Part shown: positions 2-51,488 of the stretch, in pieces
Layout of the letters: each line of letters starts with the position of its first letter
Position numbering within the stretch: position 1 is the stretch's first letter
NCBI RefSeq assembly: GCF_025698545.1
Contig: NC_068569.1
Coordinates: forward strand, 7,998,001-8,062,000
Source: Gossypium raimondii
Lineage: Eukaryota > Streptophyta > Magnoliopsida > Malvales > Malvaceae
Direction: 5' to 3'
Length of the DNA stretch: 64,000 nt
Translations under genes and position numbers: made by a program
Notes under the pieces: generated by a model
What the model was told of the DNA's origin: nothing
What the model saw: only the letters and a program-made list of their open reading frames with translations
The model's database searches: none

Positions 2-1495
2 CCAGAGATTGCTTGTGGAGTGTTCGAAGGGTTATTGAAATCCTTAACGCTGCTCCAGGAAAACCCATCTCAAGGGACTGATGTTGAGACTGGTGTTAAG
101 CTTGATGTTCCTTTGAGATGTGCCTGTCCTGGTGGTTTTGCTCGTTTTAATGGAGTGAAATATCTTGTAACATACCCTATCCTGGAAGGAGATGGAATAA
201 CCCCATTAAGCATGAAGTTTAGCATCGCTCCTGAAGATTTATTGGCGGCTAACCATTTGGAACCCAAGTCGACTGTTTATCCCAACACAACTGTTTTAGT
301 TCCTTTGAAATCAGATCCTGTAATAAACCTCAACGTACCAGATTCTCCACCTCCAACTCCAGGTTTTCTTCCCACCATCACAGTTGAAAAAACAAAGAAT
401 ACAAAATTGAGGAAATTGTATATTGCAGGATCAGTTGTTGGGTTTTTCCTGATTGTTGTAGCATTGCTTGCTTGTGGGTTTTATGTGAAGGCCGTAAAGA
501 AATGGAAGGGAGAGAGACTACAGTCTTTTACAGATAGAAACTCTGTACTCTCTTGCTCAACAGCCCGAAGCTCTCCTCGATCCGGACAAACTGGTAGAAG
601 CTCTACAAATTCTTGTTTATCACCTGATCTTCTAGCCGGGATTAAATTTTCTTTGTACAACTATGGCATAGAAGATATAAAAAGAGCTACAAATGACTTC
701 AATGAAGATACCAATAAGATTGGAGAGCAAGTCTACAAGGGATTGATTGACAATGAAAGTGTAATGATCAAGCAGATGAGATTTGAAGACACCCGCCAGG
801 TTATAGATATGCATTCTAAGATAAATCACGTTAATATTGTGAGCCTCCATGGTGTTTGTTATGGTGAAAATGACTTTGCCTGGTCATATCTGATTTTTGA
901 ACTCCCTACCAATGGCTGCTTAAAGAACTGTTTGTCGAATCAGGCTAATCGTCTCAGCTGGCATCGAAGGACTCAAATAGCTTTTGATGTAGCAACCATT
1001 TTGCATTACTTACATTATTGTATTTTCCCTTCGTACGCTCATATGAGTGTAAATAGCAGGAATATTTACGTGACATCGAAATGGAGGGCAAAGCTAGCAA
1101 ATATCGGATCGACTCTTGCTATCAGCGCATCGACAATGAATGACAAGGTTTTTACTGTCAATGGGTTGGTTGCACCACAGAATCCCATGAATGAAGCGGC
1201 ATCAGTGAAAGTGGATGTTTTTGCATTTGGGGTTGTTTTGCTTGAGCTCATCTCAGGGAAAGAGGCCGCTCAAGGAACTTTCCTTAAAGATTCAATTCGA
1301 TTTTTGGGAGGGGGAGCCAATGAAGGAGGTTGTTTTGAGCAATTGAGGAGTTTCATCGATCCATGTCTGAAAAATGAATATCTGATAGCTGAAGCTTTAT
1401 GTTTAGCAATTTTAGCCAAGGCTTGCATAGAGGATGACCCTCTCAGAAGGCCATCCATGGATGATATCCTCAAAGTTCTTGGAAGAATGGTGTAA
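2..1495 (+). CDS. LysM receptor-like pseudokinase (LYK4/LYK5 type), 5' truncated by window edge
   Basis: The frame is open from base 2 to the TAA at 1493-1495, about 497 residues, with no intron; the true start lies outside the window. The fragment holds a Cys-X-Cys motif near 118 and a last LysM-like ectodomain, then a membrane span at about 415-490 (hydrophobic run after KLRKLYIAGS), a Ser-rich juxtamembrane segment and a kinase-like domain from about 650. The VAIK lysine is kept (VMIK, Lys codon 770-772). The HRD motif is HMS (1040-1048), so the catalytic Asp is lost, and DFG is NIG (1100-1108), so the metal-binding Asp is lost. Family knowledge: LYK4 and LYK5 are intronless chitin co-receptors with inactive kinase domains that work with an active partner such as CERK1. 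It sits tail-to-tail with the carbonic anhydrase gene at 2041. The family call is strong; LYK4 versus LYK5 is undecided. Confidence 0.9.
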   Translation, partial: PEIACGVFEGLLKSLTLLQENPSQGTDVETGVKLDVPLRCACPGGFARFNGVKYLVTYPILEGDGITPLSMKFSIAPEDLLAANHLEPKSTVYPNTTVLVPLKSDPVINLNVPDSPPPTPGFLPTITVEKTKNTKLRKLYIAGSVVGFFLIVVALLACGFYVKAVKKWKGERLQSFTDRNSVLSCSTARSSPRSGQTGRSSTNSCLSPDLLAGIKFSLYNYGIEDIKRATNDFNEDTNKIGEQVYKGLIDNESVMIKQMRFEDTRQVIDMHSKINHVNIVSLHGVCYGENDFAWSYLIFELPTNGCLKNCLSNQANRLSWHRRTQIAFDVATILHYLHYCIFPSYAHMSVNSRNIYVTSKWRAKLANIGSTLAISASTMNDKVFTVNGLVAPQNPMNEAASVKVDVFAFGVVLLELISGKEAAQGTFLKDSIRFLGGGANEGGCFEQLRSFIDPCLKNEYLIAEALCLAILAKACIEDDPLRRPSMDDILKVLGRMV

Positions 1496-2040
1496 TAATT
1501 TGTAAGCAAATATGGTAGAAAACATCAGAAATATTATATTTTCTACCAGGAATTTAATTTTGACTAGTCTTCTTGATGGTAGCTTGTATATGGGATAATT
1601 AAAAATTTCCCCCAGAAAGCTTAATTGGCGAATGAATTCCTGAAATGTTGAGCATCTTTCTATTTTAGCTAAGATTCTTTTATTACATTTACATCTAGAA
1701 ATCTTATATATATACATGTATATGTATTCCTAAAATTATTTCAACATTTTGTACTTTTGAACTTGGTTACTGTCCTCAGCAGGAAGCATATATCTTGTAG
1801 ATGTAGAGTCATGGAAGAAGAATTATCGTGAACATACAATTACGGTAAATTATTATTAATGACCTTGCAAGTTACAATAAGAAGAAATACAGAAAACAAT
1901 AAATAAAGAAGAAATAAAAATCTTTTAAAAAAAGAGTTGGGAAACTCAGATTATTTACCCCTAAACATATAATCTGCATAGTTCCTCAAATCCTCAAACC
2001 GTGACATGCACATATGTTTGTTTAATATAAGATTGATCTT

Positions 2041-3722
2041 CTAATTCTCAACCTTATCGTCTGGTCTAAAGAGTTGAATTGATCGCTTATTTATTGATTG
2101 AAGCGGTCTTGCATTACTATCCCACTCCTGCAAAACCAAGATTGAATACATCAGAACCGGCTTCTCCATAAATATTATTGATGCAGATCATATAAATTTG
2201 TTCTGACAATTTATCTGGGAAATTCAAGTAGATTGAATGGAAATAAACTCACATCATGAACAGCCACACGAAGAAATCTCACTTGCTCCCTGGTTACAGT
2301 CCTCACCTGATAACGGATGGTTAATTAATGAGCATTAGCCAAGTTATAACGTATAGCTACACACTTCATATTTAAATTAAGAAAGATCACGTAGAGAGCA
2401 GGTTAATCGAACAAACCTTTCTGACAATGCTCCACACCACGTTTTCAGTACAAGGAGGAATTGTAAGAGAGCCGATGTATCTGTAATATTTTCTACTGCC
2501 AAATTTAATGTGCCTTGGATCGATCACCCCCACCGCTCTCTCTCTGTCTGTGATATCAGTAATGGCTTCTAAATGATCCATCAACTGGTAATCCACAAGT
2601 CCATAAGCAATTAGTCTTACAGTATTAGATTAAATTAGGAAAAAAGAAGTTCAGATATCAAAGCACCCAAACTCCTTTTCGTTTCAACTTACTAGTGACA
2701 GGAAAGAATCTTGTCTTCCAATCTTGTACATGATACCTATTACAGCAACCTTGCCATCTGCACTTTCATGAACCATGTGTAGCTCTAAATCATACCTGAA
2801 AAAATTATAATAGATGCCTATATCATATATTATTAAGACAAAATACAGTTTTCTCATTATGGATATGGGATCGATGCACAACATGCATGATTATGTTCTT
2901 AGCTTAATGTACATCCGCCCCAAAAAAAGCGTAACTTAATCCTCGTCTGTATTATTACCTCCTTCCGTTGATAGTGTGCTCGGAAGGTGAGTGCCAATGG
3001 CACTGGTGCAGTACATACTCTGTACCCTTTATCTCTATAGCTCCTGCTTCATCTTCCCATCTCAACTGCATACACAAATTGGGTTCAGATCATTGGAAAA
3101 CTTTGATAATTTAGTAATATGATCTTTAGCTGTAAATGACAGAGAAAATAGGCAGATTTTGCACCATGAAGCATCAACATCTCACCTAATACAACTTTTT
3201 TCAAATCATACTTAACAATGATTATATATGAAAAGAGAACCATAGCCTTTTAACAACATCTGATTAAACAACGACTATGGGAAGAGAAAGGGGGTAGTTG
3301 AAAATTTTGAGAGTTCAATTTACCATCATATCATGGCCCCTGTTTCGTAAAGTGGCATTGCTGGGCTTGTAGCTTTTCTTAAGCCTCCCTAAATGGGAAA
3401 CAATGTTAACTCTTTCGTTGGACATATCAATGGGAGATTGCATGGTCCCATTGCTACAAGCACCCCATTCTGCATGAATCTCTCCCCATCTTGCTGGCCC
3501 TTTTGTACTATTTGCTCCATAATCAAACTCACTTTCATCCTCTGCAACAACAACAAGAGTTCAAATGAAAACTTAGTCTGGTTCTGATGTAAATGTGGGA
3601 ATCAGAAACGAAACGCCAAAGTTGCCTCACGTACCGACTTCTTGAGATCTTACCGAGAATGGATGCAAGGCAAGAAGAATGAAGAAACTGCAAACAAAGA
3701 ACTGGGTTGGTAGCTTTTCCAT
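2041..3722 (-). CDS. Alpha-type carbonic anhydrase, copy 1 (7 exons, 274 aa)
   Basis: I assembled exons by splice sites and frame: 3635-3722, 3324-3541, 2959-3065, 2693-2795, 2417-2584, 2253-2306 and 2041-2127. They total 825 nt, with all junctions GT-AG and in frame. Residues 1 to about 25 form a secretory signal ([20 protein letters not shown]). The alpha-CA core follows: SPIDMS in exon 2, the zinc ligands in CHWHSPSEH (exon 3) and ELHMVH (exon 4), and SLTIPPCTE plus VVWSIV in exon 5. Alpha-CAs interconvert CO2 and bicarbonate; the signal peptide points to the apoplast or secretory route. It resembles the ACA7/nectarin-3-like subgroup. A TATA box lies about 50 bp upstream. The length is normal for the family and nothing appears broken. 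A near-identical paralogue lies at 16839-18482. Confidence 0.93.
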
Positions 3723-3772
3723 CACCCAAGAGAAATGATTTGTGGTTAAAGAATGAAAGGGGGGAGACTGCT

Positions 3773-3780
3773 TTATATAG
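3773..3780 (-). promoter_or_regulatory. TATA box of carbonic anhydrase copy 1
   Basis: On the minus strand the sequence reads CTATATAAAG, about 50 bp upstream of the ATG at 3722. The same box and its flanks are conserved upstream of copy 2. Confidence 0.7.
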
Positions 3781-3809
3781 GTTGAAGTTAATTCATATCG
3801 TTTGGGGGG

Positions 3810-4620
3810 ATTAATTAAGTGCACTTCTTCTTTTTTAATAACAATTACTACTTTTTAATCGTACTTGTATTACGCATAAAAAAAGTTGGAGCTGCCAATT
3901 CCCAACTCCAATACTTAAATTACACTATAATTAATACGACAGATACTTTTTTTAAAGTATTAACATGTCTTGGATTCCCAATATATATATTACCAAAGTC
4001 TCGATTTTAACATTTACATCTTTGTAATATTTTATAACCAAAGTAATTATCAACTCCCCTCTCTCCGAACATTTAAATTATTTTAGTTTTTGTTTAATTT
4101 TTCGTCTATTTTAATTTTTAAATTTATATTTTTATTAAATCACTTTAAAATAGATGAAAAGTTAACATTTGTTAAGTGATATGACATACACGTGGACTAC
4201 ATATCAAGATTTAATGAATTTTTAAATTATAAAAATTTAAAAAGTTATAAAAAATATTTCTTTAATATTTTAAAATTTTAAGTAAATGTTTATGTATCAT
4301 TCATGTGGCAATCCACATATCTCGCCATGTCAAGAATGTTAAAAAACATTAAATATTTTCATCCATTTTAAGATAATTCGACAACAAATGCAAATTCAAT
4401 AAAAATAAATAAAAGACTAAAAATATTCTATAAAATTGAATGACCAAATAAACTATTAAATACTCATTTATTTAAGTAATAATATAGATTAAAAACATTC
4501 ATCGATGTATAAAAGACAAATTCCGCACATTTATTTTTGAAGTCTAACATGGGTGTTTCTTAAAATGATTATTATTTGGTAAAAACGTTACCTATATTTA
4601 TATATTTATTTTTTATAATT
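3810..4620. other. Diverged flank shared with the duplicate near 18.6-19.4 kb
   Basis: Beyond the promoter the two copies drift apart, but patches still align in the same order. GGAGCTGCCAA occurs near 3890 and near 19148. A segment around 4505 (GATGTATAAAAGAC) matches one around 19360 (GATGTGTAAAAGAC). This suggests the duplicated block once extended at least this far. No gene is seen here. Confidence 0.5.
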
Positions 4621-7600
4621 TTAAATATATCTTCATAAACACACGTCAAGTATGAAATTTTATATTTTCGCTTATAATGTATTTGATAATAATCCTTAAA
4701 TCTTAAATAATTAAAAGATAATAACAAATTTTACCTTCCAATATTTATATATTTTATTTTAATTCTAGAAAATTTAATTTTAACTTTATATATCCTATTA
4801 ATTTAATCACAAATCTAAAAATTAAAATAAACCCCTACCGCATGTTAATATTTTATTGTGGTTAAAATTCTTACAGCATAATTTATGTATTTTTATCGAA
4901 AAGGAAGTTTTAAATATTTTTATTTTTATCAATTTTCTAAATTTTAAAAACTATGACTAATTTGAAAGAATATACAAATATTGGAGAGCCAAATTTATTA
5001 TTATGTCAATAAAAAGACCACATCAGCAATCCATTACTAATTTAGCGGAGGAGTAACCAAAATATCAAAGATCGATAACGTTATATAACCGGTCATGTTT
5101 TATTTATACATTAAGTATTTAACTAACTTGATACCACGAGTCACTTGAGTAATAATAAAATACTCTTATTTTACAAAGTAAATTATATTATTTTGAATAC
5201 TTTCAAAAAAAATATTATTATGAGGGTTTTTACTTTGTGTATCTTTCAAATAGAAAAATAGAAAATACACGCACAAAATAATAAATATACCATCAGAACA
5301 AAGCTTAATTTATTAGTTATATCAATCTTTTAAAATATAATTGTTATATAAATTTGTTTTTCACCCATATTGTGGGTGCCCGCAATCTAGTATTCTATTT
5401 CTTGTTTGGAATAAATTAAAGCTACTATTTAACACTTAGATAATATAGTTCAAGATTTTTTTTTCAATATTATAATGATTAAAAACTAAATATACCATCA
5501 CCATCCAACTTTTTTTTCAATATCCCAACTTTTTATGTAAAAATATCTTCTAAAATATTAAAATATACTTCAAGTTCTTGTACTTTTCATATGTTTAAAA
5601 TTTAATCCTCTTATTTTTATTTTAAAGAATCTAGTCATTTTATTTTTAAATTTAAAAATAAAAATTTAATTGTTAACACCAATAAAATTATTTTGTTTAA
5701 TTTAAATTTATTACATTATAATTTTTTAGAATATAATTAATAGTGTTAATAATTAAATTCAAAATTTAAAATATGAAAGACATATAACCTAAATTCTTAA
5801 ATATAGAAAGGTGTTGTAAAATATTATAAAGCTATAAAGTCAATGTGGGATGGATGGTCTGAAGGAAGCAACGGTGGAAAGAGGCCTTACCATATATAAT
5901 TTATTGTGCAGAATTATTAGAATTAGGAAATAGGGACAATACAAGTATTTTAAGATTTATCCACTGCTGAGGTATCTACAAATACGACAGATGTTTATTT
6001 TAGGCCAAATACATAGGATAGAAATCCATTATTACTATATATCGGTTGAGTTTTAACTTGATTGGTATGAATATTATTGTTAGAAAAACATGTAGTTGAG
6101 TGTGCTACAAATAATTCTAGGTATTGTATTAAAAAATAAGTATAATGAAATTATTTAAAAAATCATTATTAGATGCACCATATCTACATTATAATTTTTG
6201 TTGAGATATCAAATAAACAAATATATTGTTTAATGAAGTCAAACAGGATGAAATTTAAGGATGTCACACCATTGTTTATTTGAGTTTGAAGGAATAGATT
6301 TTTATTTAATGCTCATTTTTTAATTTATACATATTTATTAATTTTAAAATACATATTTACGCGTTTGTTTATTTAAATTAATTTATAAATATTAAATAAA
6401 TATATTTATAAACATATAATTAAATATATTCGTGTCAACCAACAATAAACAAATTGTTTTCCATAGAATAAATAAATAAACTCAAACAAAAAAATCACAT
6501 ACAAACAAAATTTTAGATAAAAAAATAAAACATAAATATTATTAATTATATAATAATCTATCAATAAATAAGTTTTAAACAAGGTTTAAAAACATGTTTT
6601 AAATTAACCTTAAACAAGCTTATCATATCATATATATTATATAAAAGAAGAAACGAAATTAAGCATATATATAAAAACATTGAATCAAGTTTTATTTTTA
6701 TACTTAAAGTGGATGTTGATTTTAAAATTAAGTTTTAAATATTGTTTTTTTCTGTCATCAGTAATAATGATGTTTTATTACATTAATTATAAATTTCAAA
6801 TTATTAAGCATTCTTAATAACTCCTCAATAATTTTTTGTATTTGCATTATACTCTAATTTGATTTGCAATTTACTACTAACACAATTTATAACTAAGTCG
6901 ATTAATTACCATAATAATAGATAGGGAATATATTTATTACTACTTATAGTGTGAACAATTCTTTTCATATTAAACCTTAATTGCTGCTATCTTTGTATTT
7001 GAAAACAGTCAAATATTTTTAAAATAAATTAATGTCATATACAATAATAAATACATTAAAATACATATCTATTACCCTAAAAAATAATTACTTTTAAATG
7101 CAAATGTGAAAAGGTAATACAAAATCCTTAATATCGACTATGAAAATTAAGGTAAAATTTACGGAAATAAAACCACAACAATTAAGAAATAATTTATATC
7201 AAACAAAAATAAGTATTCGATTCACTCCGCTTCCATTTTATGCATGTATAAAGGCTTATAAATAGGATTTGTGTAGAGATGATGAAACGCATAATAAACA
7301 ATTATAATAACCTAATTAAATATTATTGTTCATGATATTGATCCGATTCAAATCTTATTTTACTTTATACCTTTTAACTCTATTTTACCTAATTAATTTT
7401 AATATTATTTATTCTCTAATTTTTTAGATTAAGGTCATGGACGGGGATTTGAATAATGAATTCAATGAGAGAGTGATCGACTAACTACAGGACTAGGTTG
7501 AGATATACGGGACATTATATACAAGCAACTTAAAATTAATGAAAAAAATTGTTAAAAAGCTTGAAATGAACAAGAACATTATGAAAATTTATCAAGAAGA

Positions 7601-8900
7601 TTTCATTGATTCACCCAACTTGTGGATTGAACAATATACTATATTATTTCATATTATTTGTGAAAATATATTATTTTTAAAAATTTAAAATAAATCGAAT
7701 GGATTGTATATTTTTGAGAATTAATACACATGAAATAAGAAACTAGTTCATAAATATAAAGTAATTAAAAATGTCTTATTTATGATTTGATTCATTTCTT
7801 TAGCGGCGAAAAATTGAACATTGTTTCCATTTACGATCCAAATATTGGTTGATTTTTCTACTCGTGCCCATATTAGTGAGTATCTAATTGGAAAAGAAAC
7901 TCCATGTTTATCTGTTTTAGAATTAAACTATTTATTAATTTATTACCTAAAATTCAAACAAAACATAATTTATAAAAACCAATTGAAATTAAAAATAAAA
8001 CAACTTTTACAATTAAATACAAAAAAAAAAGAATTATAAATGTTCAACAAATAAATTTCATAAAAGAATAACGAAAAGACAAATTTCTCTATAATCTTTA
8101 TAATTTTTATTTCATAGTTGAGAATTTATGTTATTTACATAATCGAATATTGCCACTTGTTTTATTTAACTCATCATTTTATTATTAATGGATGGAATGA
8201 TATAACTTAAATATGTTTTGTGTTGTTGTTGGCCATGGGGTTGAAAGTTGTGGCTGCTTGAACCTGAAATTTTGACTCTGCCCAAAAGTATTCACAAACA
8301 ACTTAGTTTGGCTCTTTCCATACTAATATGTTTTAATGATATTGGATAATGTTTATACATAGTGGCAGAGTGAGGAACAATATTTTGGGGTTAAAATTAA
8401 AATTTATATTTTTATGATAGTTAAAATGTAATTTTATCATTTTAATAATTTATATTTTATAATTTTAAAAAGTTAAATTAATTTTTATCATTTTGAAAGA
8501 CAAAAATATAATTATACCATTACTAATTTAAAATTTTATAAATTATAAATAACAAGGGCCCGCCACTGTTTATATGGTGATGTATATGCCTCTATCGATG
8601 ATGTTTTATATACATCATTATGAATACATTTTCTTACTAAATATATTATTAGGCTAATTTATTTTATTCAGGGTTTGGAGTTTACTTCTTATGATAACTC
8701 TTTTCATATTTAAGAAGATACTAAATATGCAATTAAAATAATATACATCAAAATCACGATAACTATTTTTCGCTGTTTAGCATTAAATAACAATTATTCG
8801 CTTCCTTTAATTATCTATAAATTTGTCTAAGTCAATGGAATGGAATGAGATTCTAAATGAAATTTCAATATAACTATATATATAAAATGATCCTACACCC
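4620..8900. other. AT-rich intergenic DNA, no gene recognised
   Basis: Very AT-rich sequence with homopolymer and short AT runs. The only longer open frame (7821-8039) is low complexity, rich in Lys, Leu and Ile, and looks like chance. I recognise no transposon ends, RNA gene or conserved domain. Confidence 0.6.
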
Positions 8901-10411
8901 ATGCTCTTTTATTTTTCATTTTATAAAATAGTTTGATTTTAGTTTTTTATTATATTTAATTTTGAAATTTAATCATTATACTTTAATTCCTACCATAATT
9001 CAGTCCTATAATTTTTATAATATTATTAGTTAGTCTAAACAGTTAATATAGTTAAAATTTCGATTAAAATAATACATGATTATGTATAATTTGAATACTT
9101 TAAGGGTCTTAGGTACAAACACATCTTTTGAGTTTGCCTTGCTTCTTTTCTTCTTTTTTTTTCACATTACAAGACAATGATAATTTTTAATTTTGGCCCC
9201 TATGCTATGCTAAAACTTGGATTAAATCCATATACTTTAAAATTTGACATAATTTAGTCATTCTATTTTTATAATGTCATTAATTAGTCTAAATAGTTAA
9301 TATTATTAACTATTTTAGTTACATTGTCTGTAGTCTTTTTTAAGAACACTATTCTAACAAAAATATTCTATCATGACGAGTTTGCATGTGTGTTTTAAGA
9401 AAAAATTCACATAAGCATTTTCGACATGAATTTTATATTACATCACTATTGAGTGATTTTTTAAATTTTAAAATGTGACACTATTGAATTTAATGAAGAA
9501 CTTTAATGGTAGTAACAATTGAACTTGAATTTTAATTTTGAAAAATAGATGAACTAAATTCTGAAGAACAAAATAAGGAGACTAAATTTAATTTAAATGT
9601 ATGAAGTGTATAAGGACTTAAATCATATTTTAACTCTATAAATTGATACAAACAAATAATCAACCTATTTTAAAATATCACACGAGTGAATTTAATAAGA
9701 GAATTTTAACAATGACAACAATTAAACCTAATTTTAAAACTCAAAACTAGAGAGTCTAAATCTTTAAAGATAAAAGTACGATTAGAATATATTTTAACTT
9801 TTAAATTTTCACTTCATAATTTAATACAAATATATCATACTAATACCTATATATTTTGACCTTCCTTCTGCCGACTCGTGGCTCTCTCACCATACTTCTT
9901 TCTTTTTTTCATTTTAAAAGAATTGATTAAATTTTACATTTGGTCCCTCTAATATCTATATAAAAGGGTGGTCATCTCGCGGCTCTCTTTTTTATTTTAT
10001 AAAAATAATTAATTTTCAGTTTTACTCCCTCTAATATATTTAAAATTTATATTTAATATATACTTTATTTTTTAATAAAATTTAGTCTTTATATTTTTAT
10101 AATATTATTAATTAGCTTAAATAGTTAATATTGTTAATTTTTGGTTAAAACATTATGTGGTTATATATAATTTGAACACCTAAAAATCTTAGAGACTAGC
10201 AAGTGACTTCTTTTTTTTTTTAGATTGTTGCCGGTGCTTACAGTTCTCTTTTTGCAGTTTTAGAAAAATGACTAAATTTCAATTTTGGTCCTTCTATTAT
10301 GCCTAAATTTAAGATTTAACTACTAAACTTTAATTTCTAATTTAATTTGGTCACTGTAGTTCTATAATGTTATTAATTAGTCTGAATGCCCTAAAAGTTT
10401 TAGACACAGGT

Positions 10412-11039
10412 TAGACATGTCCATGGGCCGAGCGGCCCGCCCGAAATATGGGAGGGTTTGGGTAAAAATATAGGCCCGAAATATGGGCTTGGGCGGAAAA
10501 TATTAAATATATATATTTTTATTTTTAAAATATAATAGTTTTTATTTTAAGTTTATTTACTTTCATTTCCTTGACTAGTGTTACAAAATAATAATAATAA
10601 AACATCAAGTTTGTTTTACTAATCAAATGTTAGATTTTGTTACAACAATTAATACAATTAATAATTTGAAAAATTTACTAATCAAATGTTAGATTTTATT
10701 ACAACAATTAATACAATTAATACAATTAATAATTTGATAAATTTACTAATCAAATGTTAGATTTTATTACAACAATTAATACAATTAACAATTAATAATT
10801 TGATAATTTTACTAACAATTAATTTTAATAACAATTAGTTTTAATTTTATTAAAAAATAACTTTAATTTTAATTAAAAACGGGCCGGGCCGGGCTGGGCT
10901 CGGGCCCCATATTTTTTTCTCCGGGCCGGGCCTTGGCAAAATCTCAAGCCCATATTTCGGGCCGGTCCCGGGCCTAGTAAACGGGCTGAAATTTTTTGTG
11001 GGCCTGGCCCGAACACGGCCCGGCCCATGGACAGGTCTA
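10412..11039. mobile_element. Non-autonomous hAT-like DNA transposon (628 bp)
   Basis: The left end reads TAGACATGTCCATGGGCCG and the reverse complement of the right end reads TAGACCTGTCCATGGGCCG, a 19-bp terminal inverted repeat with one mismatch. The 8-bp direct repeat ACACAGGT flanks it at 10404-10411 and 11040-11047. A TAG...CTA terminus plus an exact 8-bp target duplication is the hAT signature. The ends are very rich in GGGCC/GGCCC while the core is AT-rich and carries a tandem repeat. No transposase frame is present, so it needs a helper. Confidence 0.88.
10616..10810. repeat. About 60-68-bp tandem repeat inside the hAT-like element
   Basis: Three units begin TTACTAATCAAATGTTAG near 10616, 10675 and 10743. 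They differ by the number of short ACAATTAAT blocks. A fourth, shorter start follows near 10808. Confidence 0.8.
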
Positions 11040-11051
11040 ACACAGGTACAT

Positions 11052-13478
11052 TGTAATATCCCGAAAATCTTTACAGTAAGATATTATCTTTGATATAATT
11101 TAATAAGAAAATAAAGCGTCAAAAAAGGGAAATTTTGGAGTTATGTCAACATTGGGTCGTATATTATGACATATTAGTTCAAGAAAGGATTAAATCGTAA
11201 AAGTGAGAAAAGTTTTGTGGCCCAAGAGTAAATACTCAAAAATTAAGGGGTGTTATATTATGACATATTAGTTCAAGAAAGGATTAAATCGTAAAAGTGA
11301 GAAAAGTTTTGTTGCCCAAGAGTAAATACTCAAAAATTAAGGGGTTAAAGTGTAAATATGAAAAGTTGAAGGACCAATGGTGTAAATATTTTAAGGGTGG
11401 AATGATCTAGAAATTAAGAAAAATGGATGGATTAGGACCAAATTGAAAAAGGTGAATAAGTTTGAGTGACTAAATCATAATTTTACCAAACTAAGTGATG
11501 ACTCAAGATGGAATTTTAAAAGATCATGAAGGGCAAAATGGTCAATTAGAAGAGAGAGAAATCTAGAAGATAATGATGATGTTGGAGATATTTTAGATTA
11601 ATTAAATAAATAAATATTAGTTTATTAATATTTTGATTTGATTTTTAAATGATATGTTGTTATTTTATTATTTTAATATTTAGTATATATATATGTGGAA
11701 AGAAAGATGAGAAGGATAAAACCCACCATCTTTTCCATGCAATTCACGTTAGAAGAGAAGAGAAGAAAGAAAGTTTTACTTTCTTTACAATTTAGTCCTT
11801 CCACCAAAAATTCATCATTTTATCTAGAAATCAAAAGAATTTCCATATCCATCAAGAGAGAAAGATAACAAGGAGACTATGGGGAGCTAGAATATCAAGT
11901 TAGATTCAAGAAATAGAAGCTGGAGGAGAGAAAATCAAGTTAAAGATTGAAATCAATATGACAAGGTAAGTACATCAAGATTTTAATATATTTTTAAGTT
12001 TGATATTATTGAAAAGCATGGAAATGATGTTAATGTAAAGTTTTGTATATATGGTCCTATGTACTTGATATGTTAGTGAAGAGAAAATAAGAGAAAGTGA
12101 TGAGAAATAGTGTAGAGAAAGAAAATAAGGGTGTTATAAACATGGTAATAAACATCTTGCACTAAAATGGTTTTGGACAGTAACAGTGGGCTCACTTTGA
12201 AAAATCACCATAAATTATGAAAATCGAATTAGAGTATGAATAAAATATGGAATTAAAGCTTATTGAGTCTAGTTTCTCATAAAAGAAACGGTGTAAGTAA
12301 TGAAATTATAAATTATGAGATATAATAAATTTTGTGAGACAAGGTCAGAATGAATTCGGGTTCCCCTGTTCTGACTTGGAAAAATAATTAAAAATTGTAA
12401 AAAAATAGTTATGGGTTAAAATTTATATGTTTAAAATCCTTAATGAGTCTATTTTCAATAGAAACAAATGGGGACATCATCCAAATTCTGAACAAATAGA
12501 TAATTAATTTTTAGTGAAGAAGGGTCGGAATTGTCAGACAGCAGAACAAAGGTGACTTTAAAGAATAAACTGTACTTATTGGCTGAACCAAAAATTCTGA
12601 AAATTTTATGGTAAGAAGGTATGTGAGTCTAGTTTCAGGTAAAATTAGAGGATCCTAATTTGGAGTTCTGTAGCTCAAGATAAAAATAATTTAGTGGCTA
12701 TGACTCAAATGGACAGCTTTGAATAAATTTACAAGTAAATTGTGAAATCATAGATAATGTTACTTATAAGCATGTATTATAAATTAAGGATGTGGAATGG
12801 AGAGGAGGAGGAGGAAAATATATATATGAATATTCAGTTAGCATGGATAACTTGCACGTTTTAGACTCAAGGACTAAATTGAATAAAAGGAAAACTTTAA
12901 GGGTAAATTTGTAAAAATGTCAAAAAGTGACCAAATTGCATGAAATGAATTGTTTTATTATTTAAATTAGTAAATGGAATGAAATATTAATTTAGATCAA
13001 GATTGGGTGAAAATTTGAGAAAATAGAAAACTTCCAAAATATCCACAATTTTGATATTTCGCAATTTAGTCTGGTAAGCTCAAATGAGCTATATTCTGTA
13101 ATAATTTTAATTGAGGTGAATGCTATTTGGTAATGAAAATTATATATGTGTGTATTATTATTGGAATTAAATTATTAATGGTAATATGTATAATTATTTG
13201 ATACATTTAGCTGATTATCGGAAGCTAAATTGAGTTGGAAGCTTGTTGGAGATATATCACAGTATCCATTGGTTCTATCGGTAATTTTGGATGATTTGAT
13301 TCTGGTTATAATGGCATGTATAAGTTAAATTGGTTAACGTTAGCTCATTAATGTATTGATTTTGATTGGTTATAAATATGAATGCTAGATAAAAATGAAA
13401 TGTCTGAAAATTAATTAATAAACTCCGGTAATGCCTCGTTCCCTATTTTGGTGTCGAATACGGGTAAAGGGTGTTACA
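11052..13478. mobile_element. Solo LTR of an LTR retrotransposon (2427 bp)
   Basis: It starts TGTAATATCCCG and ends GGGTGTTACA, so the termini are TGTAA...TTACA. The 5-bp repeat TACAT flanks it exactly at 11047-11051 and 13479-13483. There is no internal coding region, which fits LTR-LTR recombination leaving a solo LTR. The end resembles the other LTRs in this window (CGGTAATGCCTCGT... then GGTGTTACA). The superfamily is not certain; Gypsy is my guess. It contains a 94-bp direct repeat near 11164-11345. Confidence 0.88.
11164..11345. repeat. 94-bp tandem duplication in the solo LTR
   Basis: The block beginning TTATGACATATTAGTTC at 11164 recurs at 11258 almost unchanged (the only difference I see is TTTTGTGG versus TTTTGTTG). 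Near-identity implies a recent duplication inside the LTR. Confidence 0.85.
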
Positions 13479-13899
13479 TACATGGCTTTTTATTTCTTTT
13501 AGGTTTGCCTTTTTTTTTTTTTGGTATATAGTAAGGCAATGATCAGACCTCAGTTTTAGCTCTTACATTATGCTGAAATTTAGAATTTAATGTATATACC
13601 TTATTTTTTTTGCATAATTTGATCTTTCTACTTTTATAATTTCATTAGTTAGTCTAATTATTTAACATTGTTAACTATTTTAATCAAAACGTTGACGCCA
13701 TTTTTATTTACTGAACACTATTCCAACAAATTTTTTTATCATTACGAGTTTGAACGAATTATTAAGAAAAAATCTATAAACATTTTCAATGTTGTTTTTA
13801 TGTTCATGATGTCACACCAATGAATTAAAAGAATTAATAGTGGTAATAATGGAACCAGACAGTATACTCCATGGTTTAACATAAATAAAAGTCAGTATA

Positions 13900-15190
13900 A
13901 TAAGAAAATCGAGAAGGTAATTGAAAATTTGATGTACAGTTAAAATGATTGTATTGAAAAGTCAAATGTAGGGAAATAAATTTATAATAGTAACTTAAAA
14001 TTAATATTTTTGATTTCTAGAAAAACCAATTGTAACAAATTTGTTTTAAATAATATTATAGAATTTATCCTAATTCGAGTCTTTCAGGGAATAAATAGTA
14101 AATTTGTATTTGAAAGAAATATATACGTGTGTGGTATAAATATTAACTTTTAAATTATATCGTAAAAAATTAATATTTTGATTTTCCATTAAAATCAATT
14201 AGTCATTTTAATGTTTTTTCATGTTGAAATTTCAAATTTTTTACATGTGTAATGATTTTAATGGCTACGATTTCAAACGTTTAATTAAATCAGTATAAAT
14301 TATAACCTAATTTTAGGTTCAATATTATCTCCTGAAATCTTTATATATTACTTTGAATTTAATTTGTTAAAATTACACATGAATTTTAGTGCAATGTTTA
14401 TTTTATTTTGGGGATATTTTATATTAATTTCTTCATATATATAATTTTACTTGGCCTTAATTTAATCTATGCATTTAGATAATCATTATATTTCCAGGGT
14501 ATGTCTTAGTCAAATCTTAATATTAATTTGTATTATGTCAGTTATTCTAGATTGTTTTTGGGGTTTTGAGATATTGTATTATAATAAATTAATAATTGAT
14601 GGTTGAGGAAACACGCATTAAAATGGAGGGTTCTACTTACCACTTAGGGAACCTGCTTTATTGTTAGACTTGGACTTTTTAAATTAAATTATGTCCTTTT
14701 GTTTCAATCACTTTGGCTTCATCAATTTCATACCATTTTTTAGTTTTGTTTGAAACTTTTTTACCATTAAATCTCAATCTGATTATTTAGTGTTTGGGAG
14801 CACTATTACAATTATTTTAAAATATGTTAACATTATTAAATTTAGAATATATATTAACTATACTAAAATTCTATCACACGTGGAAACTATGTACTTAGAA
14901 CACATATGCTAGTTTTAAAAATAACATACAATAAAAATGAAACGTATACTTTGAATCTAATTAATAATAACACATAAAATATATACGATATTAATATAAA
15001 AATAGATTAAATTGTGAATAAAAATACACTATAATTGTAAATGTATACGATATTAATATAAAAATACACTATAATTGTTAATATCGAATTCACTTGTTGC
15101 ATAAACTCAATAAAACAATATTATCGATACATACAATTAATGGAGGTAATAAAGTGTGCATAATAAAATTAAAATGTACAAAATATTTCA
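13900..15190. other. AT-rich intergenic DNA with a small local duplication
   Basis: No gene is seen. A short stretch around 14985-15030 is repeated around 15045-15080 (TACGATATTAATATAAAAAT in both). The rest is AT-rich with no recognisable element ends. Confidence 0.5.
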
Positions 15191-15198
15191 ATATAAAA

Positions 15199-15352
15199 CA
15201 TTGGTTGAGCGGTAAAATTAAAATTTTATTATCAATGCAAATGTCATGGGTTCAAATCTTATCATAAATATAATTTTTTAAAATAAAATAGAGTTTTGGT
15301 TTAGTGGTAAAATTAGTGTTTTATTGATGTAAGCATGGATTCAAATCTCACC
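15199..15352 (+). repeat. Two SINE-like tRNA-derived heads
   Basis: Two adjacent segments (about 15199-15262 and 15288-15352) pair a box-A-like word (GGTTGAGCGGTAAAAT; GGTTTAGTGGTAAAAT) with a box-B-like word (GGGTTCAAATCT; GGATTCAAATCT) about 30-45 bp downstream, as in tRNA-derived RNA polymerase III promoters. Neither folds convincingly as a complete tRNA, so a SINE-like origin is inferred. Confidence 0.5.
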
Positions 15353-15569
15353 AACGCACATTTTTATTAGTTCTTTTAAATAAAAAATTATAGTACCCCA
15401 AATATTATAACTTATTTTAATTATAAAAATATATTTTTGCAATTTTTCTAATTAAGTTGATGCCCGATTGACTTATGACACCAACTCGTTAGGAGTTTAA
15501 TAATAGTAAATATATAGAATTAATGGAGACAATTAAGTATGCATAATACAATTAAAATGTATGTATATA

Positions 15570-16140
15570 ATAAAATAGAGCTTTGGTTTAGTGGTAAAAT
15601 TAATGTTTTATCGATGTAATACCACATGTAAATTTTTTAGGTTTTAAAATAAAAATAAAAAGGCTAAACAACCCTCAAATAATATAACATATTTTAATTA
15701 TAAAGGAATATTTTCGTAACTTTTCTAACTAAGTTGATGCTCGATTGACTCATGACACTAACTTATTAAAACTTAAATAATAATATATCAATTTAATATA
15801 TCTCAACTTAACTAACATTTTATAAAATCTATCAATTTAATTATTTTAACATAATTTTATACTTTTACCTCTTATATAAAAATATCAAAGTTAAAATCAA
15901 TAGCAAATAGGAAAAATATACAATATATCTATTGTTCTATACAATTATATAAATTCCTAATTGAGTTGGTTTCACAAATTAATCGTTTACCAACTCGATT
16001 AAGAAAATTACGAAAAATGACATTCCATAATTAAAATAAGTTAGATTATTTGAGGGTATTTTAAATTTTTATTTTAAAAATCCAATAAAATTTACATATG
16101 ATATACAATTGTAACAAATACTAGCCCTTAGATTATTCAA
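15570..16140. repeat. Inverted pair of a SINE-like/MITE-like repeat
   Basis: A copy at about 15572-15780 reads box-A-like GGTTTAGTGGTAAAAT, then CCCTCAAATAATATAAC, then AAGTTGATGCTCGATTGAC. A reverse-complement copy lies at about 15955-16140 (GAGTTGG... then TTATTTGAGGGTATTTT). A direct copy also lies at about 15288-15490. The two arms are about 175 bp apart and could form a long hairpin if transcribed. Confidence 0.6.
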
Positions 16141-16303
16141 TGATTTTTAATTTTTTTCTTAATACATTGGGTTGACAAGTGTCCTATAAGAATATAGTAA
16201 AATATTAAAAAGTTATATTAAAAAAGAGACATATGACAATTTCCTATAATAAAAATATATACTAATCCTTATACTATATTCATATAAGACACTTGTAAAC
16301 CTG

Positions 16304-16440
16304 TTTTAACCAAGGCTTGCATTGAGGGTGACCCTATCAGAATGGTGTAATAACTGTAAGCAGATATGGTAGCTTGTATACGGGATAAATAAAATATTCC
16401 CAAAAAGCTTAATTGGCGAGTGAAATCTTGGAATTTGGTT
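16304..16440 (+). pseudogene. Remnant of the LYK pseudokinase 3' end
   Basis: This matches 1411-1640 of the complete LYK tail. It keeps the last coding stretch (CCAAGGCTTGCATTGAG, then GACCCTATCAG), but 39 bp corresponding to about 1447-1485 are missing in frame, so codons run straight into ATGGTGTAA. A second gap of 64 bp in the 3'UTR falls between two copies of ATGGTAG present at 1512 and 1576 in the intact gene. Everything upstream of about 1410 is absent. It is the edge of the duplicated block that also carries carbonic anhydrase copy 2. Confidence 0.85.
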
Positions 16441-16838
16441 GGTTGCTATCCAATTTAATTTAATCAAAAGTAACCTTACAATTTGGTTGTCTCTACATGT
16501 AGGACTGCTACCAACATATCATTTTGCTAATTTTTGTGATCGTATATAAAGTGGTTATGTACCCATAATTTCTTTATTAATTGAATGATTATGTATATTT
16601 AAAAAGAAAAAACACAGAAGAAGAATATTTATCATTAACATTCAGCACCACGATACAATTAAATCTAAAAAAAATGTTGGGAAACTCAGAACACATGCTC
16701 CTAAAATATAAATTGAAGAATACAATATATGGTACCTCAGCCTAAGCTTATTAATCCGTCAGTATATAATCTGCATAGTTCCTCAAAATAATCAAATGGT
16801 GACATGCACCTATGTTTGTTTAATACATGATTCATCTT

Positions 16839-18482
16839 TTAATTTTCTTCTTTATCATCTGGTCTATAAAGTTGAATAGGTCGATTATTTATTGACTGAA
16901 GTGGTCTCGCATTCGTATCCGAATCCTGTAAAATGAAGATATATAAAATTTCTGTTCTGATAATTTATCTGGAAAATTCAAGTAGATTAAATGGAAATAA
17001 ACTCACATCATGTACAGCCACACGAAGCAAACTCATTTGCTCCCTGGTTACAGTCCTCACCTGATAAAGGATGGTTAATTAATGAACATTAGCCAAGTTG
17101 TAACGTATATCTACAGACATCATATTTAAATTAAGAAAAATCACGTAGAGAGCAGGTTAATCGAACAAACCTTTCTGACAATGCTCCACACCACATTTTC
17201 AGTACAAGGAGGAACAGTAAGAGAGCCGATGTATCTGTAATATTTTCTACTGCCAAATTTAATGTGCCTTGGATCGATCACCCCCACCGCTCTCTCTCCG
17301 TCTGTGATATCAGTAATGGCTTCTAAATGATCCATCAGCTGGTAATCCACAAGTCCATAAGCAATTAGTCTTACAGTATTAGATTAAATTAGGAAAAAAG
17401 AAGTTCAGATATCAAAGCACCAAAACTCCTTTTCGTTTCAACTTACCGATGATAGGAAAGAATCTGGTCTTCCAGTCTTGTACATGATACCTATTACAGC
17501 AACCTTGCCATCTTCACTTTCATGAACCATGTGTAGCTCTAAATCATACCTGAAAATATTATAATTGATGCCTATATCTTATATCAACAAGACAAAAATA
17601 CAGTTTTCTCATTATAGATATGGGATCGATGCACAACATGCACGATTATGTTCTTAGCTTAACGTACATCCCCCCCCCCCCCCAAAAAAAAAGTGCAACT
17701 TGATCCTCGTCTGTATTATTACCTCCTCCCGTTGATAGTGTGCTCGGAAGGTGAGTGCCAATGGCACTGGTGGAGTACATACTCCGTACCATTTATCTCT
17801 ATAGCTCCTGCTTCATCTTCCCATCTCAACTGCATACGCAAATTGGGTTCAGATCATTGGAAAACTTTGATAATTTAGTAATATGATCTATAGCTGTAAA
17901 TGACGGAGAAAATAGGCAGATTTCCATATAACATCAACATCTCACCTAATACAACTTTTTTCAAGTCATACTTAACAATGATTAAATATGAAAAGTGAAC
18001 CATAGTCTTTTAACAGCATCTGATTAAACAACGACTACGGGAAGAGAAAGGGAGTAGTTGAAAATTTTGAGAGTTCAATTACCATCATATCATGGCCCCT
18101 GTTTCGTAAAGTGGCATTGCTGGGCTTGTAGCTTTTCTTAAGCCTCCCTAAATGGGAAACAATGTTAACTCTTTCATTGGACATATCAATGGGAGATTGC
18201 ATGGTCCCATTGCTACAAGCACCCCATTCTGCATGAATCTCTCCCCATCTTGCTGGCCCTTTTGTACTATTTGCTCCATAATCAAATTCACTTTCATCCT
18301 CTGCAACAACAACAAGAGTTCAAATGAAAACTTAGTCTGGTTTCTGATGTAAATATGGGAATCGGAAACCGAACGCCAAAGTTGCCTCACGTACCGACTT
18401 CCTGGGATCTTACCGAGAACGAATGCAAGGCAAGAAGAAGGAAGAAACTGCAAACCAAGAACTGGGTTGGTAGCTTTGCCAT
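16839..18482 (-). CDS. Alpha-type carbonic anhydrase, copy 2 (7 exons, 274 aa)
   Basis: Exons are 18395-18482, 18083-18300, 17723-17829, 17447-17549, 17171-17338, 17007-17060 and 16839-16925. Their lengths equal those of copy 1 (825 nt), all with GT-AG borders. The signal peptide starts [20 protein letters not shown]. The zinc ligands ([15 protein letters not shown]) and SLTVPPCTE are intact, so it should be active. By eye there are about 21 substitutions from copy 1. None fall in exon 2; most are in exon 4 (I to T and Q to P in the KIGRQD segment) and at the C-terminus (for example EWDSNA to DSDTNA). The 5' leader has about 26 extra bp right before the ATG. It lies about 14.8 kb from copy 1 in the same orientation. 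Confidence 0.93.
17670..17692. repeat. C14-A9 homopolymer in intron 3 of carbonic anhydrase copy 2
   Basis: A run of 14 C followed by 9 A. Copy 1 has only CCGCCCCAAAAAAA at the same place. The length is likely variable or prone to sequencing error. Confidence 0.8.
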
Positions 18483-18556
18483 CTTTGTGAAGGTACGTAG
18501 CTTACAATGTCCAAGAGAAATGATTTGTGGTTAAAGAATGAAAGTGGGGAGACTGC

Positions 18557-18565
18557 TTTATATAG
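18557..18565 (-). promoter_or_regulatory. TATA box of carbonic anhydrase copy 2
   Basis: On the minus strand the sequence reads CTATATAAAG, about 75 bp upstream of the ATG at 18482. It is conserved with copy 1 but further away because of the leader insertion. Confidence 0.7.
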
Positions 18566-18599
18566 GTTGAGTTTTACTTCATATCGTTTGGAAATGTTG

Positions 18600-20985
18600 A
18601 AAAAAGGGGGTTTCTTGGGGGTGGGTTTAATTTCTTTCTAGAATTGTGCCGTATGAACACAAGAAATCAACAAGCTGATAGCAAGGCCACCCCTGTTAGA
18701 TTAGACAGTCATACTACAAAATGGAATTCAATTTTGAAGTAAACTCAGGTGGTTTTTGGCTGTTTGCGTGGTACCTGCCTTTTTCTTCTGTTTTGTCTTA
18801 AAAAACATATTATATCTTTCGGTTGACGTGTTGGATGACGGTTGAACCCACATGGGTTTTCTAATCCATAAATCCTTTCTTGGTCGTTTAAAATTAAATG
18901 ATGGCCTAACAAGTACAAAGTTTGAGCAAAACTTTTGATTTGAGGCTTTATGCGTTGAGGTGGAAGTTTCATCCTATACAAATATCATATATCAAATTTT
19001 CTTTTAGATTATTTTTTATTCAAAATTTGTTATGCGTAAATTTTATCTAAATTTATTATGGTTTGAATTGAAATATAATCAATTTTCAATATATTAATAA
19101 ATTTTTATTTTTAATTGTAGTAACTTTATGGGTCAAAAAGAAGTAGGAGCTGCCAACAACAAATATAAAAATTTGAATTTAATTTCAAACAACATTATTT
19201 GTCATCTCTGGATCTCAACCTTTTGTATATTTTGATTGCTAAAGTCATTACCTACTGCAATTATCGCATGTATTTAATCTAATTGTATACCATAATATAG
19301 TGTAGAAACATTCACCTTCTATCAGTTAATATATTAGACATGGAGAAATATGACAGCGATGTGTAAAAGACGGATTCGTTGTGTTTATTTTAAACTCTTC
19401 GAATATTTCATTTTAAAATAAAGTAATATCTGGTAAGCTGCAAGTAAAAAATAAAATAAAAATAGATTGAAAGAGCAAAAATAATCACGTGTTTTTATAT
19501 ATTTAGTCCTTCTGAAGCTTTTTATTTACGTTTGCAATGCATCTTATGCCAACATTTTGGGTCAAATAATGCTCTTTCAACACCGGATGCTGCAAATTCT
19601 TTACCTATTAATAAATCAATACCCTGTTATAACATTTTGAATGAATCGTGGTAAATATCATATCCTCAAGAATAATCCTAAAATTCTGCTTATTTCAATA
19701 TCAATTAGCTTTCCCCATTGTACGAATTCAAATACGGTGTGTTGTATACATCAGCATTAAATAGTCAACAAAATTGTATTTTTGCATAAAATTTATATGT
19801 AATTATAATAAAATAGTTTATTGAGATAAGTTACATCAATGTTTGTCTGAGATCGGTATTGTTGTCAGTATAGGAGTAAGTACTTTGTCTTCCTATTTAA
19901 GGGTTAAGAAGAAATAAAATTACAAAATGATGTGTCAATGGTATAAAAAAATTTAAAATAGCATTAAATAATTAGTAAGAGATACAAAATGATGTGACGA
20001 ATCTGCTTGTTATTAACCACCAAACTTGGAATGATAATATAGTATGATGAACAAATCCGATTATTTATGACAAAAATGGTGGATTCAAAACCCTTAAATT
20101 TAGCGATTCCTGAAATCTTTTAGTGAATGCCGGATTTATTTGAAAAAAAAGTGGTGATGATGTTATAGGAAAAGGTGTTAATATTTAAATACCTCATTAA
20201 TGAATTCTTCTTGTGAGTGCAGGTAAATGACATCAGGTTTGGAAAGCAAAATGGGATTCGCCTTTGACGTTAATCCAGTCATTGCACACGTTTCAAACAT
20301 TGGGGTTGGAGCATTCACCTTCAAAGTTTCTGAAATAACTACCCCACTTTTTCTCTCTCTAAACAAGAAAATAGTTTATCTATTTTTCCTGAATTTGAAG
20401 ATTTCTAATAAAATTTCTAGTCGTCGACTAAGTCTGCTTCAAATCCCTTCATTCATATATAATATGCCAAGTTTCCTGCAAAGAAACTACATCTTTATCT
20501 ACCAAAAGCTACTTCTTTTTTTTGGATTATAATGGTGACAATGTCGCAGGTTTATATTAAAAAAAAATGACTGGTTAAAAATAATTAAAAAAAATTTAAC
20601 TACTTGTCTTCACAACCGCCTTAACCAAACAATTGCTGAGACAGTAAAAGAAAAATAAAATATTAGTTTGAAAATTACAACATTGCCTTCCTCATGCTTT
20701 TGACTTTTATATATAGACATATTCTATCATGTAATATTGAGTTCTTGTATGATGATTGTGTTACAACAGTAAAACATTGACATAAAAGTTAATAAATAAA
20801 ACTTTTCACATCATTAATAGCAAAATTAAATGTGGAAATGTACTTGAATTCATGGATATGTTAAAATCTTCAGAGATTGTAATTTTGATATTTAAAATTT
20901 ACACGCAAGTATTTTGAAGTCATTGACTCTCTTTTCTGAAGATGAGACGTTAGAAAAAAGTTACTTATGTGTAATTTAGAGACCA
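18600..20985. other. Intergenic DNA following the duplicated block
   Basis: The first part retains patches of the copy 1 flank up to about 19440. The rest is AT-rich. A moderately complex open frame on the minus strand at 20178-20366 (62 aa) is noted but not assigned. No RNA gene is seen. Confidence 0.5.
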
Positions 20986-20987
20986 TA

Positions 20988-21117
20988 TGTAACACCCCTC
21001 ACTTGATCCAATAACAGATCCGAGCAAGAGATGTTACATTTAAGCACAATTATATTTTGAAATCACATTCATACATTTGCTTTATAACATTTCTAATATA
21101 CATTTAAAGGTCATATT
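20988..21117 (-). mobile_element. Truncated LTR terminus
   Basis: The sequence TGTAACACCCCTCACTTG at 20988 is the typical end of the LTR family in this window read in reverse, and a GATGTTACA follows at 21030-21038. The fragment is cut off at 21118, where another LTR begins, suggesting nested insertion. Confidence 0.5.
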
Positions 21118-35442: not shown

Positions 35443-35456
35443 GCAGGAAAACAGCA

Positions 35457-35720
35457 ATGGCAAGAATGAAACTTATGGCACTTGCTTTAGTAATTTTGAT
35501 GATGGGGAATTGCTGCTTGGCAACAAATAGGAAAGTTATAAAAGTAGAAGGTGATGGGCTCAGGCATGAACAAATCAGTGTCCATGGCCGTCAGCTGCTT
35601 GATGACAGTGGCAGTGACAGAGCCAGCTATCCATCGAGCAGTATAAACAACCATCATTTCCGGCCTAGGCAGGATTTCCCCGGTGGTGGTACTGGAGATG
35701 GAAGCGGTTCAAATAATTAG
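35457..35720 (+). CDS. Small secreted peptide precursor (87 aa), family uncertain
   Basis: The frame runs from ATG 35457 to TAG 35718-35720. Residues 1-22 form a clear secretory signal (ALALVILMMGN), likely cut near CLA-TN. The mature part is short, hydrophilic and without cysteines after position 20. The C-terminal region carries NNHHFRPRQDFPGGG (residues 64-78) followed by a Gly/Ser/Asn tail. The layout (signal, variable middle, short conserved-looking C-terminal motif) is that of plant peptide-hormone precursors. From memory, a similar NHHxxPRQ motif occurs in uncharacterised small plant proteins, but I cannot confirm it. It does not match the CLE, PSK, RGF or CEP motifs. Function unknown; a signalling role is inferred. 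Confidence 0.8.
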   Translation: MARMKLMALALVILMMGNCCLATNRKVIKVEGDGLRHEQISVHGRQLLDDSGSDRASYPSSSINNHHFRPRQDFPGGGTGDGSGSNN

Positions 35721-49847: not shown

Positions 49848-49912
49848 CACAAAATTGTCCAATTTGTCTTCCATGTAAATCAACAATAAACTATTTAGCT
49901 TTCTTAATTTAC

Positions 49913-50560
49913 ATGGCAAACATTTTACGTTTAGCCTCTCTTTCTGTTTTCTTCTTTTTTATAATTTATTCTCCCTTATTTTCTAATGCTCTCTCCGATT
50001 GCAATGGTCCATGTCGAGACTTGAACGATTGCTCTGGTCAGCTCATTTGCATCGACGGCAAATGCAATGATGACCCTGATGTGGGGACTCATATCTGTCG
50101 AGGAAGTAGCCCCTCACCTCCGACTGGGAACTGCCAGCCCTCTGGTTCTCTTCAATGCCAAGGCCAAATTTATCCTACTTATAAATGCTCACCTCCAGTT
50201 ACATCCTCCACCAAAGCTAAATTAACAAACAATGATTTTAGTCAAGGTGGTGCTGGAGGGGGTCCGTCTGAATGTGATGAGCAATACCATAGCAACTCCG
50301 AGCGTATAGTGGCGCTTTCCACTGGGTGGTATAATGGTGGGTCAAGTTGCGAGAAGATGATACGGATCAAAGCGAGCAATGGGAAAAATGTGACAGCTAA
50401 GGTGGTTGACGAATGTGACTCCATGCGTGGTTGTGATGAAGAACATGCATACCAACCTCCTTGTAAGAATAACATTGTTGATGCGTCTGATGCAGTGTGG
50501 AGTGCTTTGGAGCTCAATAAAGATGTGGGAATTGTAGATGTTACATGGTCCATGGCCTAA
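49913..50560 (+). CDS. Kiwellin-family secreted Cys-rich protein (215 aa), intact
   Basis: It is a single exon with ATG 49913 and stop TAA 50558-50560. Residues 1 to about 27 form a signal peptide ([18 protein letters not shown]). The N-terminal Cys-rich module follows ([25 protein letters not shown]), then a proline-rich linker, then a double-psi beta-barrel (RlpA-like) domain from about residue 100 with [16 protein letters not shown] and the closing VDVTWSM. I count 14 cysteines, an even number suiting disulfides. Kiwellins (ripening-related proteins) are apoplastic; some family members bind secreted fungal chorismate mutases and dampen their virulence effect. The role of this copy is inferred from the family. 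It is the only intact member of a three-member tandem cluster. Confidence 0.95.
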
Positions 50561-51425
50561 GGTTTAAAAATATGTTCTTGAAGAATTTCTTTAACTTTGA
50601 AATACTATTGTTATTATGGTAAAAAACTAAGGGGTTAGATTGAGAAAAATAGGGTGGTATATGGTCCTTGGCCATGGCATCCGTATGACATGAATCTTGC
50701 TCTTTGATCTCATAAAATATATCAATAAATAATGATGATAAAATTTCCAAATATGCTAATTCAATTTATTTGTAAAACATTAAAAGTTAAAAAATTTTAA
50801 AAAAAACTTCATAATTAATAAAAAGTCATGGTCCTGCCTAACCCTATCACAAGTCGTTTAGATCCCCAAAAGATGGTACAAAAGTTAACGAGTTGGTACA
50901 AAAAACAAATACAAAATAGCACCACCCTCCCAATCCTGGTCAAGTCTGTATAAACTTAAGATTCTTTAATCTTCGTTAAAACCTTAACCCAGATTAACGT
51001 AAACAATGAAACTATGTCAACCCATATTACAGAGTCTGGTTCATCATATTTGGAATTTTATTTTTCTAGAATTTTTATATAAAAATTTCTATTCTTTAAA
51101 TAATTTTTATTATTAAAATTTTTATATAAAAATATAAAAATTGAGGATTAAATTATTGTTATTATACCAAATAAAAAACTACAATTGTTGGTAAGTAACC
51201 TTACACATGACTAAAGATAACTTTATAGAAAAAAGTTTATTTGTGAGGCACTAATGGGAGCACCGAGTGGGGCACATCCAAAGACTTTGTTGCTCCAAAA
51301 AGGACATTGAATTACCCCCTCAAAAAAAAAACTTATTTGTGCTTAGCAGAAAAAAGGACTTCGTTTAGTTTTAAAAAAAGGTCTTCATTTAAATCTCCTT
51401 TATAACATCTTTTCTTCGCAACCCT

Positions 51426-51434: not shown

Positions 51435-51488
51435 CCAATGGCCAATTTGTTTTCTCTAACAAGCAGGTCTTTGGCTTTGCTAATTAGC

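Follow-up and report, generated by a model that had tools for sequence, protein, structure and literature searches.

A tandem pair of alpha-carbonic anhydrase genes with mosaic divergence between the copies

The DNA analysed here is a 64-kb window (C5:7998001-8062000), and the genome searched for relatives of its genes comprises 750,779,957 bases in 281 contigs. The window opens within a gene for a LYK4/5-type LysM receptor-like kinase (LYK), which is followed by two alpha-carbonic anhydrase genes, copy A and copy B, whose exon limits are models from reading frame and splice signals alone:

2..1495, plus strand: LYK4/5-type LysM receptor-like kinase, 3' part of the open frame (Pfam PF23472, PF23473, PF07714)
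2041..3722, minus strand: copy A, alpha-carbonic anhydrase, 274 aa, seven exons, GT..AG introns
3722-3635, 3541-3324, 3065-2959, 2795-2693, 2584-2417, 2306-2253, 2127-2041, minus strand: exons 1 to 7 of copy A
16839..18482, minus strand: copy B, alpha-carbonic anhydrase, 274 aa, seven exons, GT..AG introns
18482-18395, 18300-18083, 17829-17723, 17549-17447, 17338-17171, 17060-17007, 16925-16839, minus strand: exons 1 to 7 of copy B

Both anhydrase genes lie on the minus strand and are convergent with LYK on the plus strand, which corrects the preliminary description of this DNA. That the second anhydrase gene is complete, as stated there, holds: copy B is open over all seven exons and its 274 residues. 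Each product matches the anhydrase profile PF00194 far above the cut-off of 27 bits (copy A, 140.6 bits, E 9e-41; copy B, 143 bits, E 1.7e-41), and the solved chain nearest to copy A by sequence is dioscorin 5 (4twl; E 8.9e-66, residues 32-266), a member of the same family that has glutamine where copy A has histidine in ELHMVH. In copy A the motifs HWH and ELH line up with HFH and EAH in the solved anhydrase 6eki, which we take to be the motif positions of the three zinc-binding histidines. Copies A and B are identical at these positions. Human CAII has three zinc-binding histidines (PMC5226100). On sequence grounds both copies belong to the alpha-carbonic anhydrase family, and by family membership they are predicted to be CO2 hydration enzymes.

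The LYK frame is 629 aa long and starts upstream of the window; Pfam profiles place LysM2, LysM3 and kinase domains in the 497 aa that fall inside it, an arrangement shared with the LysM receptor kinases LYK4 and LYK5. Copy A adjoins this gene, whose body was found once: the match that ranks next after LYK itself has 35% identity, and no other entry in the list of 88 matches from the whole genome (86 of 1165 candidates scored) is above 39%.

When the window was compared with itself, four stretches recurred from copy A to copy B in the same order and in direct orientation, and the more sensitive comparisons extended the correspondence:

1410-1448 with 16304-16342, direct: 90% identity, self-comparison
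1484-1518 with 16339-16372, direct: added by a more sensitive comparison
1576-1650 with 16366-16437, direct: 84% identity, self-comparison
1848-1965 with 16584-16705, direct: score above 200 of 200 shuffles
1967-2142 with 16764-16940, direct: 83% identity, self-comparison
2181-3805 with 16933-18591, direct: longest piece, 92.8% over 1665 columns, E = 0
4424-4582 with 19271-19436, in register: weak trace beyond the strong block, 64%

Introns and flanks match, order and orientation are conserved, and the segmental (tandem) duplication proposed in the preliminary description is thus borne out. The introns are part of the block, as had been claimed, since introns 1-5 differ at 38/727 aligned sites; the match is therefore not limited to exons. 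The extent given for the block (1411 to about 4600, recurring at 16304 to about 19440) needs qualification: in the global alignment strong homology stops at 3805/18591, and the rest is the weak 64% trace, the score of which was equalled in 1/200 shuffles. Farther out, the comparison of 4590-6600 with 19440-21500 revealed no homology above chance (53/100 shuffles scored as well), and none of the remaining weak matches of the sensitive self-comparison is in register with the duplication. The copies are separated by about 12.5 kb counted from 3806, or 11.7 kb from 4600, instead of the roughly 10 kb reported at first.

The two edges of the block differ in character: the right one fades into the weak trace, and the left one, in copy B, adjoins an inverted-repeat element.

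16170..16301, no strand assigned: inverted-repeat element of 132 bp next to the LYK remnant of copy B, arms 88% complementary
16304..16437, plus strand: LYK remnant of copy B with its 3' flank, from alignment with A and the sensitive self-comparison

Homology in copy B begins at 16304, two bases past this element, a relative of which is present in the C13 locus L015. The remnant reads LTKACIEGDPIRMV-stop, i.e., 14 LYK codons plus the stop, in agreement with the earlier estimate of about 40 bp of LYK coding sequence. Two deletions distinguish it and its 3' flank from copy A: 39 bp of the coding part are missing, in frame, between AGA motifs, and 64 bp of the flank between ATGGTAG repeats, of which A has two (1512 and 1576) and B one (16366). 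A longer LYK remnant to the left of the element was not found when 1-1409 was compared with 14900-16303 (85/100 shuffles were as good). With this element directly beside the homology in copy B, the duplication did not necessarily break at 1410 within the LYK coding sequence, and copy B may at first have carried more of LYK that was truncated later.

On the promoter side the duplication reaches only slightly beyond the gene.

3771..3779, minus strand: TATA-like box (TATATAAAG) in copy A, 48 bp upstream of the ATG

The box is also present in copy B, where it lies 73 bp before the ATG because the leader differs by 25 bp in length. Beyond the box, strong homology continues for only about 25 bp upstream, and the two genes therefore have just the core promoter in common, with no control sequence visibly shared farther out; of the promoter that was initially included in the duplication, this part stands and anything farther does not. 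About 25 bp of leader just before the ATG (18484-18508) occur in copy B alone, being absent from A, and this sequence is not recognisable in the C13 gene described below.

Between 4000 and 16300 the longest stop-to-stop frame is 79 aa, and the sequence includes several repeats:

4097..4424, no strand assigned: self-complementary (inverted-repeat) stretch, 67% over 346 columns
10581-10879 and 11160-11345: tandem repeats
12117..12773, no strand assigned: dispersed repeat, partner at 23078-23721 (73%)

The self-complementary stretch lies beyond the strong block and ends where the weak trace 4424-4582 starts. The pair 12117-12773/23078-23721 was at first a candidate for a distant part of the duplication but was rejected: the sequence is also present in the C4 locus L010 (86% over 449 bp), and it is accordingly taken as a dispersed repeat. 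Rfam, at gathering thresholds, yielded no match within the 64-kb window. Elsewhere in the window there is a second direct pair, of kiwellin-type (KWL1) frames at 49894-50670 and 51470-52238, which are 80% identical; the second frame, read stop to stop, is without the signal-peptide-like start of the first. A small open frame at 35454-35717 also has a signal-peptide-like start; it has no Pfam match, and from its sequence it could be a secreted peptide precursor.

Divergence between copies A and B is not uniform along the block. Counted over aligned sites, the differences are distributed as follows:

3' flank: 8/74
exon 7: 18/87
intron 6: 13/81
exon 6: 4/54
intron 5: 7/110
exon 5: 5/168
intron 4: 1/108
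exon 4: 7/103
intron 3: 13/163
exon 3: 4/107
intron 2: 13/253
exon 2: 2/218
intron 1: 4/93
exon 1: 7/88
5' flank: 6/83

A change-point test of our own, applied to the 1790 aligned sites of 1967-3805 with their 112 differences, placed the best change-point after 2207 (2-unit support interval 2152-2283), with 37/197 differences to its left and 75/1593 to its right. The gain in log-likelihood was 21.3, against a maximum of 9.9 among 2000 permutations, so that 0/2000 were as strong, under the assumption of the permutation test that sites are independent. The block is thus divided as follows:

1967..2206, no strand assigned: more diverged part, from the 3' flank through exon 7 into intron 6
2207..3805, no strand assigned: tract of low divergence in copy A, spanning the core promoter, exons 1-6 and introns 1-5 (left edge is an estimate)
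16961..18591, no strand assigned: low-divergence tract in copy B, left edge approximate, from alignment

The sharp change is seen at the left edge of the tract only; no step occurs at the right edge because that edge coincides with the end of alignable sequence. A sub-tract within the tract was considered and rejected, its longest identical run (122) having been equalled in 295/2000 permutations.

Within the tract, exons 1-6 are about 96% identical and introns 1-5 about 95% (94.8%), and exons 1-6 have a Ks of 0.10 and a Ka of 0.025. For exon 7, which is short and offers 17 synonymous sites, Ks is 0.90 and Ka 0.13; the whole coding sequence gives intermediate values (Ks 0.15, Ka 0.035). An assembly artefact, with two haplotypes of one locus set side by side, would agree with the high identity of the central part of the block. 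It is exceedingly unlikely, however: the flanks differ on both sides, Ks is about 0.9 in exon 7, and the body of LYK occurs once. The same values bear on the idea that exon 7, which encodes the C-terminal 28 residues, was spared because the tails of the two proteins do different work, i.e., that a shared catalytic core is combined with two tails, each maintained separately. This we consider quite improbable: a Ka of 0.13 against a Ks of 0.90 is what ordinary constraint would give, and nothing favours the functional reading.

Higher divergence than in the introns is also seen on the LYK side of the block. In three patches there, 15/127 aligned sites differ, as against 38/727 in introns 1-5 (p = 0.0085), and the count becomes 23/201 when the anhydrase 3' flank is added (p = 0.0033); that flank alone, at 8/74, is not significantly different from the introns (p = 0.063). 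A fourth LYK-side patch, with 20/104 differences, was aligned and left out of the pool, which consists of well-aligning patches and differs at 11-12%, below the Ks level of exon 7.

To place these differences relative to an outgroup, we drew on the anhydrase family in the whole genome, where 18 matches (22/22 candidates scored) were grouped into 10 places. The closest paralogue among the 8 places compared is an open gene of 274 aa on the minus strand of C13 (58441837-58439771). A whole-genome DNA search with the block (5/5 first-look candidates scored) returned 9 matches, all of which fall in copies A and B, the C13 gene, a distant gene on C1 or a broken copy on C4. The C13 paralogue served as sole outgroup (O), and exon 1 was left out of the outgroup Ks. 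The C4 copy at 47.89 Mb was rejected as a second outgroup, being a broken relative of the C13 gene with no match to exon 7; this anhydrase (C4:47888000-47896999, locus L032) aligns with that gene at 87% identity over 512 columns, has a stop in exon 3, and its other pieces are scattered.

The surroundings of the C13 gene resemble those of the window. Along C13:58439771-58473241 (loci L015, L018, L020 and L021), anhydrase, partial kiwellin and MIP1-type matches follow in the order of the window, the kiwellin match at 39% over 66 aa and the MIP1-type match at 51% over 136, with orientations that differ from those of the window. The stretch has one anhydrase gene, and no LYK was detected at E 1e-3 within 55 kb. 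Gene content and order suggest that it is likely to be a paralogous segment of the window, which perhaps arose by polyploidy. Six of the 10 anhydrase places form three more same-contig pairs:

C4:21.41 and 21.54 Mb: pair about 129 kb apart
C9:37.91 and 37.94 Mb: pair about 28 kb apart
C1:50.663 and 50.670 Mb: pair about 6 kb apart

The aligned pieces of these pairs show 62-75% DNA identity, and they therefore look far older than A/B.

Over exons 2-6 the two copies are much closer to each other (Ks 0.09) than either is to the outgroup (A-O 0.68, B-O 0.73). Over the first 24 codons of exon 7 the three values are 0.61 for A-B, 0.74 for A-O and 0.63 for B-O, with very wide bootstrap intervals (0.33 to infinity, 0.22 to infinity and 0.20 to 2.17, respectively); here the two copies stand about as far from each other as each does from the outgroup. 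The patterns at variable sites point the same way: A equals B against O at 104/126 such sites in exons 2-6 and at 7/20 in the first 72 bases of exon 7 (Fisher p = 2.7e-5). Judged by this small exon, the pair may be about as old as its split from the C13 paralogue.

If exons 1-6 had remained alike since a single old duplication through strong selection, with no conversion, the close similarity of exons 2 and 5 (2/218 and 5/168) would be accounted for. Selection on the protein does not, however, hold introns and silent sites, and introns 1-5 are 94.8% identical, silent sites in exons 2-6 have a Ks of 0.09 as against about 0.7 to the C13 gene, and the introns of A and B align poorly with those of C13. 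We therefore regard this explanation as very improbable.

Another possibility is that the whole block was duplicated once and recently, and that one of the copies then either acquired a new exon 7 and 3' side from another anhydrase gene or evolved unusually fast there. A Ks of 0.09-0.10 over most of the gene accords with recency, exon 7 is the most diverged exon, and the anhydrase 3' flank by itself shows no clear excess of divergence over the introns. But the excess divergence extends to the LYK-side flank, which also has several indels and which cannot derive from another anhydrase gene, and this counts against replacement. In addition, where A and B differ in exon 7, the outgroup matches A at 5 sites, B at 5 and neither at 3, so that neither copy alone is the odd one. 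A single recent event is, in our judgement, rather unlikely.

The step implies that the exon 1-6 part of the block was homogenised later than the rest, and the initial view of a single event, with a single age for the whole block, does not hold. Gene conversion is the most likely source of the step, and we consider it probable that an old tandem duplication was followed by conversion of a tract of about 1.6 kb. The duplicated unit would have included the convergent alpha-carbonic anhydrase gene together with at least the 3' end of LYK. Ectopic gene conversion would have followed much later and replaced about 1.6 kb of one anhydrase copy by the sequence of the other, from the core promoter through exon 6, introns 1-5 included. 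Divergence would have fallen in this tract and stayed at its old level in the LYK tail, the 3' flank and exon 7. Repeat insertions and small deletions between short direct repeats would then have eroded the flanks of copy B, and repeat insertions would also have filled the space between the copies. On this history, the locus would be a compact example of an old duplicate pair that appears young through a conversion tract, and dating the pair by its whole coding sequence (Ks 0.15) would mislead.

Tandem duplicate pairs are of a common kind in plant genomes, and the A/B pair is a real, ordinary tandem duplication of mosaic age. Like other such pairs, its members are neighbours in the same orientation, with a truncated piece of a neighbouring gene beside one copy; nothing in A/B is different in kind, and mosaic divergence is its sole notable feature. 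A duplication with such divergence is ordinary plant genome evolution and nothing new in kind. Gene conversion among plant paralogues is documented, a rice survey (PMC2277409) giving 377 events with a mean length of 130 nt and a range of 4-1237 nt. Against that range, which was obtained by another method from other data, with its mean of 130 and maximum of 1237 nt, the A/B tract of about 1.6 kb would be long. In both cases the pattern is one of local homogenisation inside paralogues that are diverged elsewhere.
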